The translations under genes and the position numbers were made by a program. A stretch of DNA of 37,545 nt from Myxococcota bacterium (GTDB lineage: Bacteria; Myxococcota_A; UBA796; UBA9615; JAKLKC01). The notes beneath the pieces were generated by a model. That model did not search any database and was not told the origin of the DNA. It saw nothing but the letters and a program-made list of their open reading frames with translations. Positions 7,437-8,925 of this stretch are shown here, piece by piece. The DNA lies in assembly GCA_023150875.1 (NCBI GenBank), contig JAKLKC010000060.1, positions 1 through 37,545 on the forward strand, given 5' to 3'. Each line of letters begins with the position of its first letter. The stretch's first letter is position 1.

Positions 7437-7499
7437 ACGGCCCCAGGGGGCGCCCCCGGGGACTCGGACGAGGGAGTGAAGGGCGGTCCGCGGTGTTTC

Positions 7500-7508
7500 T
7501 GGTACAAT
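7500..7508 (+). promoter_or_regulatory. Extended -10 promoter of the secreted protein gene
   Basis: TGG followed by TACAAT at 7503-7508 forms an extended -10 element (five of six bases match TATAAT). No good -35 is seen at 17 bases, as is common for extended -10 promoters. The leader to ATG 7590 would be about 75 bases. The element lies in the 153-base gap after dusB. Confidence 0.45.
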
Positions 7509-7589
7509 TCCCGGCGCGCCCAGCCTGCCCGGCGCCGCGCCCTGGACGCCCGGCGGGCGGCGCGGCCCCCGCGGCACCCGGAGGAATGG

Positions 7590-8465
7590 ATGGTCCGCAC
7601 GCTCTCCCTCACCGGCACCCTCACCCTGTCCCTCTGCCTCGGCCTGGCCCTGCCGGTGGGGGCGTCCGCCGCGGGGGCGGCGCCCGCGACCCACGGGGCG
7701 AAGTCCGATTCCAAGGACGAGGGCAAGAAGGCCGAGAAGACCGAGGACAAGAAGGACGACAAGAAGGACGAGCCCGAGGCCGCGCCGGAGGCCGCCGGAG
7801 GCGGTGACGAGGGATCGTCCGAGGAGGGCGAGGAGGCCCCCGACGACATCGGCTCCGAAGAGGCCGGCGGCTCCATGCCCGGGCGCGTGGGGGGCGGCGG
7901 GTCCTCGGACATCGTCGGCGGCACGGATCTGCCGCCCACCCTCGGCGAGCCCAACGTGGCCGGGACCCCCCGGGTGAAGATCACCCTGCGGGACGGCACG
8001 GTGCACGAGGGCAAGCTCACCCACGTCTTCAAGGGATCGGACAAGTGGAACGCCGATCCCCAGGCCGACCCGAAGTTCACCATCAACGTGGACGTGAACG
8101 AGCTCCAGCTCGAGTGGCAGAACGTGAAGACGGTGACCGGCCGCGACGCCGACCCCTCCAGCGACATCGACTGCTGGTCGAACCAGGACGCGGTCCCGCT
8201 GGAGTACGAGTGCACCCTCGCCCAGCCGACCTTCGTCAAGATGAAGAAGACCCACCAGTACCAGGGCGACTACAAGATGGTCGACCGGGAGCCCTTCACC
8301 TTCGTGCTCGACGGCAACGCCGAGAAGAGGGCGATGCTCTACCTCTACAAGATCCCCATGAAGGTCGCGGACGACGGCACGCCGGAGTCCGAGGCGCTGG
8401 CCCGCCTCCAGGTGGCGCTGAAGGCCGTCAACCTGAAGGGGATCCGGACCATCGCCTTCGAGTGA
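7590..8465 (+). CDS. Secreted protein of unknown function with charged linker
   Basis: A 291-residue protein I do not recognise. ATG at 7590 follows GGAGG with five-base spacing, and this start is at once followed by a signal peptide (MVRTLSLTGTLTLSLCLGLALPVGASAAG). Residues of about 35-75 are a Lys/Asp/Glu-rich, probably disordered linker, then a Gly/Ser stretch, then a folded C-terminal part of about 170 residues rich in beta-prone segments (PRVKITLRDGTVHEGKL, FTINVDVNELQLEW). Two cysteines (DIDCW, YECTL) 15 residues apart could form a disulfide. No membrane segment follows the signal, so a periplasmic or secreted location is likely. It has its own promoter and is followed by the small-RNA region on the opposite strand. 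Confidence 0.8.
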   Translation: MVRTLSLTGTLTLSLCLGLALPVGASAAGAAPATHGAKSDSKDEGKKAEKTEDKKDDKKDEPEAAPEAAGGGDEGSSEEGEEAPDDIGSEEAGGSMPGRVGGGGSSDIVGGTDLPPTLGEPNVAGTPRVKITLRDGTVHEGKLTHVFKGSDKWNADPQADPKFTINVDVNELQLEWQNVKTVTGRDADPSSDIDCWSNQDAVPLEYECTLAQPTFVKMKKTHQYQGDYKMVDREPFTFVLDGNAEKRAMLYLYKIPMKVADDGTPESEALARLQVALKAVNLKGIRTIAFE

Positions 8466-8594
8466 TCCCCCCGCCGGCCCCCGCCACGCCCGCCCCCCGC
8501 CTCCCCCTCTCGCTCCCCCCGCCCCTCGCCACCCCATCGCCCCAGGGCCGACCTGCGGCCGCGGCTCCCCTCCGCCTTCCGGAGCCCCCGGGGG

Positions 8595-8632
8595 AAAAAA
8601 AAGAGCCGGCACCGTTCATCGGTGCCGGCTCT
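8595..8632 (-). terminator. Intrinsic terminator, minus strand
   Basis: A perfect 13-bp stem (8602-8614 with 8620-8632) and a 5-base loop are followed, reading leftward, by a run of eight U (plus-strand A at 8595-8602). On the plus strand no U run follows, so it does not serve the upstream plus-strand gene. Its core GCCGGCACC is shared with the hairpin at 8768-8796. Confidence 0.85.
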
Positions 8633-8637
8633 CAAGG

Positions 8638-8709
8638 GTCCCGGTCCACGGGCGGATGAGGGGGAGGGGGGGCCGCCATCACCATGGGTATGGCGTGTGG
8701 ACCGGGAAC
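8638..8709 (-). repeat. Structured direct repeat, unit B (promoter-distal)
   Basis: This 72-bp copy matches 8803-8873 except for one extra base and one substitution. Its ends form a perfect 10-bp inverted repeat. The duplication period is about 165 bp and also includes the following hairpin, so hairpin plus unit were duplicated as a block. Confidence 0.9.
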
Positions 8710-8767
8710 GCGCGTCCTTCAGCCGTCCTCTGGGCCCTGACGGGGGCCGGCGGGGCGGCGGATATGC

Positions 8768-8796
8768 GGCCGGCACCCCTTGTCAGGGTGCCGGCC
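8768..8796 (-). other. Internal hairpin between the two repeat units
   Basis: An 11-bp perfect stem (8768-8778 with 8786-8796) and a 7-base loop. The core GCCGGCACC is the same as in the terminator at 8602-8632, but no U run follows, so it looks like a terminator that lost its U tract, or a processing or stability hairpin. Confidence 0.7.
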
Positions 8797-8802
8797 AGAA
8801 AC

Positions 8803-8873
8803 GTCCCGGTCCACGGGCGGATGAGGGGGAGGGGGGGCCGCCATCACCAGGGTGTGGCGTGTGGACCGGGAAC
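8803..8873 (-). repeat. Structured direct repeat, unit A (promoter-proximal)
   Basis: This 71-bp copy begins about 26 nt after the predicted transcription start. Outer stem, bulged inner hairpin and C-rich strand are as in unit B. The inner hairpin uses CAC/GTG where unit B uses TACC/GGTG, so pairing is kept although the sequence differs. Confidence 0.9.
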
Positions 8874-8909
8874 AGTCGAGAGTCTCATCAGCGAACGTCC
8901 CTCCCTTAG

Positions 8910-8925
8910 AGCAACGGCCATGCCA
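8910..8925 (-). promoter_or_regulatory. Sigma-54 promoter of the small RNA
   Basis: Read on the minus strand, 8925-8910 is TGGCATGGCCGTTGCT, an essentially full match to the RpoN consensus TGGCAYR-N4-TTGCW, with exact GG-N10-GC spacing. The predicted start is near 8899. Sigma-54 promoters need an enhancer-binding ATPase, so the RNA should be condition-dependent. Confidence 0.75.

Follow-up and report, generated by a model that had tools for sequence, protein, structure and literature searches.

Tandem three-way-junction units with a constant C-rich loop suggest a new sRNA family in an uncultured lineage of Myxococcota

The stretch of DNA analyzed here, a contig of 37,545 nucleotides from a Myxococcota bacterium (in the following "the window"), carries two near-identical units. 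In a sequence-only reading these had been taken for RNA units whose differences would be suggestive of selection on the fold after a recent duplication. This raises the question of whether the units belong to a structured RNA at all and, if so, what kind of RNA this might be. Comparison of the two units confirmed that a substitution and a 1-nt indel within the small inner hairpin are all that distinguishes them, and placed the units on the minus strand with a start-to-start spacing of 165 nt. There are only three copies of the unit in the genome, whereby the third one lies on another contig. The features are as follows:

8911..8925, minus strand: sigma54-type promoter TGGCATggccgTTGC (GG-N10-GC), from a pattern match; predicted transcription start at ~8900
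8803..8873, minus strand: upstream unit (unit 2), 71 nt, three-way junction, from fold, z-score, and covariation with the other copies; P1 8871-8861 with 8814-8804, P2 8859-8855 with 8849-8845, P3 8842-8838 with 8820-8816, C-rich loop 8837-8821
8767..8797, minus strand: GC-rich hairpin 3' of unit 2, from fold and local alignment; not scored as a terminator
8638..8709, minus strand: downstream unit (unit 1), 72 nt, same architecture as unit 2, from fold, z-score, pair probabilities, and covariation; P1 8707-8697 with 8649-8639, P2 8695-8690 with 8685-8680 (one extra apical U-A pair), P3 8677-8673 with 8655-8651, C-rich loop 8672-8656
8593..8633, minus strand: intrinsic terminator, 14-bp stem and T run, from the terminator scan
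G000:C114:54304-54368 (= L002 1484-1548): third copy, between a promoter-like site and a strong terminator

Each unit consists of an 11-bp outer stem P1, a small hairpin P2, and a stem P3 that closes a 17-nt loop CCCCCCCUCCCCCUCAU. The minus-strand fold energies amount to -33.5 kcal/mol for the upstream and -34.8 kcal/mol for the downstream unit (z -3.49 and -3.66 compared to shuffles), whereas the plus-strand folds of both units are weaker (z -2.77 and -2.97). An RNA encoded on the plus strand was rejected because of this weaker fold and because neither a promoter nor a terminator was scored on that strand. The terminator scan of the region scored a single terminator, located on the minus strand at 8633-8601, compared to 0.3 in shuffled sequences. 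The hairpin at 8767-8797 is related to the terminator stem 3' of unit 1 but has no T run, as if it were a decayed terminator, and is probably read through by the polymerase. In a fold of positions 8593-8900 (minus strand) as a single RNA, pairing between the two units is preferred, joining the 3' arm of unit 2 to the 5' arm of unit 1; this modeled result could be an artefact of folding or possibly reflect a switch between alternative structures.

The two differences between the units had been interpreted as a compensatory change, in which a C-G pair of a CAC/GUG hairpin becomes a U-G pair of a UACC/GGUG hairpin. This interpretation did not hold, since the respective pairing has a probability of only 0.12 in the upstream and 0.04-0.09 in the downstream unit. 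The favored P2 stem is CGCCA/UGGUG, which is the same in both units and reaches probabilities of 0.72-0.85 (upstream) and 0.88-0.91 (downstream). The C>U change and the additional A sit at the tip of this hairpin, where together they create one extra apical U-A pair in the unit at 8638-8709 (probability 0.75). Because both differences merely add this apical pair to an otherwise identical P2 stem, no pair is compensated between the two window copies. The proposed 165-bp duplication also proved too long: local alignment yielded similarity over the unit and the next hairpin, that is ~106 nt, and the remaining period is unrelated.

The general claim of selection on the RNA fold, on the other hand, was borne out by the third copy and by copies from other genomes. 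The third copy is preceded by a sigma70-like promoter (TTGACT-17-TATCAT) and followed by the strong terminator. Its outer stem P1 shows two-sided changes at four of 11 pairs and a one-sided change at one further pair. All 21 structure pairs are kept in all three own copies, compared to 49.2% or less if the partners are slid against each other. As a separate observation, a 36-nt core is identical in the three own copies, which are distributed over two contigs, while the outer stem and the flanks differ; between genomes this core is much less alike, so that either gene conversion or a strong constraint might act within this one genome.

In order to find relatives, a covariance model of the three own copies (R1) was run over 71 genomes of the class. 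Its matches are mostly chance, as 37 of the 71 genomes gave matches at E up to 1, but tandem matches occurred in G006 and G004, which belong to the same order. In G004 the array adjoins a gene pair encoding an ECF sigma factor and a zf-HC2 protein. The ECF sigma protein from the locus of the third copy, used as an anchor, matched in 67 of the 71 class genomes and led to the same location in G001, G002, and G003; for G001 and G003, which gave no match in the R1 class search, the anchor was the means of locating the array. The R1 matches in G059 (a GC-rich repeat), in G062, and at G006:C606 (apparently coding DNA without an array) were judged to be chance, although they ranked beside true ones. 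Altogether, 40 sigma loci were fetched, five from order relatives and 35 others. C-rich hairpins adjoin the sigma gene in all five order relatives with a sigma match, with three hairpins each in G001, G004, and G006, two in G003, and two simple ones in G002. In the relatives, CCUCCUCCUCA is found in the final hairpin of the array. In the sixth order relative, G005 (79% complete), neither a sigma match nor a model match was found. A scan of the 35 loci outside the order for the C-rich motif yielded nine scattered matches in seven loci, none of them in a tandem array. The hairpin 3' of the array in G006 recurs in nearly identical form at the end of the contig (L030 1630-1764), which may be genuine or due to the assembly.

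For the covariation analysis, ten three-way-junction units from five genomes were segmented by each unit's own fold, the cuts were checked against the DNA, and the units were aligned. Within this alignment 159 of 170 pair cells are paired (93.5%; cutting by the unit's own fold favors such percentages, and related units are not independent), compared to a mean of 66.7% in shuffled alignments, and none of 500 shuffles reached this value. The covariation score of 0.739 (0.200 shuffled) was likewise reached by none of 500 shuffles. Sliding the partners by 1-3 columns left at most 46.6% paired. Two-sided changes occur at 12 of the 17 pairs. By helix, 75 of 80 cells are paired in P1, 40 of 40 in P2, and 44 of 50 in P3; the P1 arms fit their own partner in 67 of 72 cases, compared to a mean of 36.9 when the 3' arms were dealt among the nine units with distinct arms. 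The inner hairpin thus pairs in every cell although two of its four P2 pairs change on both sides, and no case of variation without pairing was found. The loop core CUCCCCCUCA is invariant in all ten units. P1 and P2 constitute a scaffold that is largely free in sequence but kept in shape, while the C-rich loop is constant. Overall, these data strongly support that selection keeps the RNA fold of the units.

A second model (R2) was built from the ten units and recovered them at E up to 0.0012, as it must by construction. Beyond these, R2 found nothing below E 0.065 in the 71 class genomes and one weak extra match, in G079 (E 0.0077), in 377 genomes of the phylum; its strict filters may lose weak members, and the simple hairpins of G002 are absent from its results. 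The R2 matches outside the order (class E >= 0.065 and G079) were judged from their sequence alone to be chance, and two alphaproteobacterial matches from a pattern scan of named genomes were rejected, as they lie in apparently coding DNA. The RNA family was thus seen in one order only.

Sigma54 promoters follow the consensus GG-N10-GC. The site at 8911-8925, which was noticed by eye before the counting, is the only strict sigma54-type match in the window when both strands are scanned. A sigma54-type site is located ahead of the first hairpin in six of the seven arrays, namely in the window and in the five relatives, and is absent at the third copy. The strict pattern TGGCA[CT]N6TGC is present in all five order loci and has two matches in the 35 other loci; the background from these other loci and the window is 5.8e-6 per base, which corresponds to ~0.0009 expected matches per 150-nt upstream stretch. 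The rpoN gene was identified in six of the seven order genomes, the exception being G006 (73% complete). A search for Hfq gave no hit in any of the seven order genomes, while the same search was positive in five of 14 control genomes. On the array strand, a T-run terminator was scored in only four of the seven arrays. It was also observed that the first bases of the predicted transcripts in L110-L114, just after the sigma54-type site, share a CTTT-containing stretch (e.g., GTCTTTGA), which precedes the first C-rich unit and is in some loci accompanied by a small hairpin.

The C-rich loop contains CCUCC, which is the anti-Shine-Dalgarno core, and appears closer to a pairing strand than to a ligand pocket. 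The units are best read as modules of a predicted new sRNA family with anti-Shine-Dalgarno-like loops. We consider it fairly probable (about 0.62) that they form a trans-acting sRNA of ~305 nt, which extends from a sigma54 promoter to a terminator and whose loops block translation starts without Hfq. According to this model, the minus strand would be transcribed from the sigma54 promoter (~8900) to the intrinsic terminator (~8593), and the RNA would carry two three-way-junction modules, whereby P1 and P2 would serve as the scaffold and P3 would hold open the long C-rich loop with its invariant core. By complementarity, the loop would match G-rich mRNA sites of the Shine-Dalgarno type, and with its repeated copies the RNA could block the translation starts of several mRNAs, again without Hfq. 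Several results speak against this model. For 16 translation starts of neighbors and other genes, the pairing with the loop was no better than background. Perfect 10-nt complements of the loop are not enriched in the genome (45, compared to 83 for the reversed pattern). By raw count, nine of 40 inspected 10-nt complement sites are followed within 2-16 nt by a start codon that opens a frame of at least 60 codons, and no target emerged from these sites. The preferred pairing between units in the fold of the whole transcript, the T-run terminators scored in only four of seven arrays, the sigma70-like instead of sigma54-type site at the third copy, and the restriction of the family to one order likewise count against the model.

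A different role would be that of a protein decoy, with the C-rich loops of the tandem units sequestering an RNA-binding protein in the way that CsrB-type RNAs sequester CsrA. The protein that suggests itself is KhpA, which has a KH domain and binds RNA, and whose gene adjoins the ECF sigma gene in 27 of the 41 loci examined across the class. Array and khpA are organized back to back (divergently) in G001, G002, G003, G004, and G006 as well as at the own third copy, and such an arrangement would suit a decoy, as would the tandem copies with their unvarying loop on variable scaffolds, the order genomes in which no Hfq was found (0/7), and the 16 translation starts and 40 complement sites among which no mRNA target was found. 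Some KH domains, moreover, bind C-rich strands. However, khpA is located next to the sigma gene also in 21 of the 35 loci outside the order, which have no array, and for this reason the link between khpA and the array may be an inherited accident. Furthermore, the window locus lies elsewhere and has no khpA, and a paper on C-rich binding by KhpA was not found in the open-licence literature. On balance, a decoy function seems unlikely. Rather improbable is also a more specific arrangement, in which the array would act as C-rich decoy or partner of the neighboring KhpA in a lineage whose genomes gave no Hfq match; RNA and RNA chaperone would then form a sigma54-controlled, divergently encoded pair, and the three-way junctions would hold up identical protein-binding loops. 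Regarding gene orientation, khpA and the sigma gene are co-directional in the five relatives; they diverge in the own genome, as they do at 20 of the 21 khpA loci outside the order; owing to this difference, the khpA-array segment seems to have been flipped in the relatives' lineage.

Tandem structured modules in front of a terminator could also present a cis-acting leader or riboswitch, whereby tandem aptamers and the terminator would control a downstream gene. The third copy, which precedes the ECF sigma gene in the same orientation (a second gene, with a weak anti-sigma score, accompanies the latter), would agree with this. In the window, however, where the neighbors with Pfam matches are Dus and SbcD, the next gene past the terminator runs in the opposite direction (7476-8465, plus strand). 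On the far side of the array, hutU or hutH is found in G002, G003, G004, and the own genome; in the three relatives this gene ends towards the array, which accordingly points at its 3' end, and there is no same-strand gene directly after the terminator. Taken together with the loop, which looks more like a pairing strand than a ligand pocket, this makes a leader very improbable. Finally, the units might be due to chance foldability or constitute a plain repeat element of a GC-rich genome without RNA function. While the high GC content and the many weak model matches elsewhere that are chance (37 of 71 genomes, E up to 1) would allow for this, the two-sided covariation, the same location beside khpA and the ECF sigma gene in five relatives, the promoter-like and terminator-like flanks, and the low number of three copies in the genome speak against it, so that it is scarcely credible.

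The reading as a trans-acting sRNA adds a sharply defined, covariation-supported sRNA family for an uncultured lineage, at loci where Rfam finds nothing: no family reached its gathering score in the window or in six loci, and nothing on this sRNA family was found in the open-licence literature. The presence of khpA beside arrays in genomes where Hfq was not found also offers a direct starting point for asking whether some protein, and which one, assists sRNAs when Hfq is missing.

On this reading, the RNA would work like ar14/NfeR1, CcsR1-4, and Pxr but be a member of none of these families. Pxr from Myxococcus xanthus (RF01812) is reported to have a sigma54 promoter and an essential first stem-loop, with tandem paralogs in Cystobacter and a host without an Hfq homolog (PMC5684412, PMC5568312). 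Its Rfam consensus has a C-rich first stem-loop, and a sigma54-type site is located ahead of six of the seven arrays here as well, as judged by sequence. In contrast to Pxr, which lies beside pxrR/pxrK, the neighbors here are khpA, ECF sigma, anti-sigma, hutU, and hutH (in the window Dus and SbcD), and the Pxr model has no three-way junction. With the RF01812 model, whose cut-off is 80 bits, the own copies stay below the gathering score at 27.0, 17.7, and 28.3 bits, and none of 282 phylum genomes has a match over the cut-off.

CcsR1-4 from Rhodobacter sphaeroides (RF02791) are reported to be tandem homologous sRNAs, co-transcribed with ccaF1, the gene of the small RNA-binding protein CcaF1, and linked to alternative sigma factors; they are processed from the ccaF1 3' UTR and bind Hfq (PMC8307010). 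The RNA studied here shares the tandem copies and the link to an RNA-binding-protein gene and an alternative sigma factor. CcsR has the conserved CCUCCUCCC motif (Rfam name). The differences are own promoter-like sites, khpA instead of ccaF1, and that no Hfq was found; the RF02791 model scored 13.2 bits in L002 compared to 65.3 needed and thus stayed below the gathering score.

In ar14/NfeR1 from Sinorhizobium meliloti (RF02344), three hairpins are reported to present an ultraconserved unpaired C-rich anti-Shine-Dalgarno motif on highly variable stems; mRNAs are silenced through these C-rich loops, and the sRNA has LsrB as its activator and NtrC as its repressor (PMC10746234). The RF02344 model reached 18.0 bits on the G006 array (L113), below the gathering cut-off of 58.8; neither the window nor the third copy is among its listed matches. 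Unlike ar14, whose motif is CCUCCUCCC, the loops here carry CUCCCCCUCA or CCUCCUCCUCA and belong to three-way junctions with a sigma54-type site and khpA/ECF neighbors. The plan resembles that of ar14 in its several hairpins (two in the window, two to three in the relatives), each of which displays a recurring C-rich motif unpaired on a variable stem. By analogy, one constant C-rich loop on freely changing tandem scaffolds, as in ar14 and CcsR of the alphaproteobacteria, suggests convergence.
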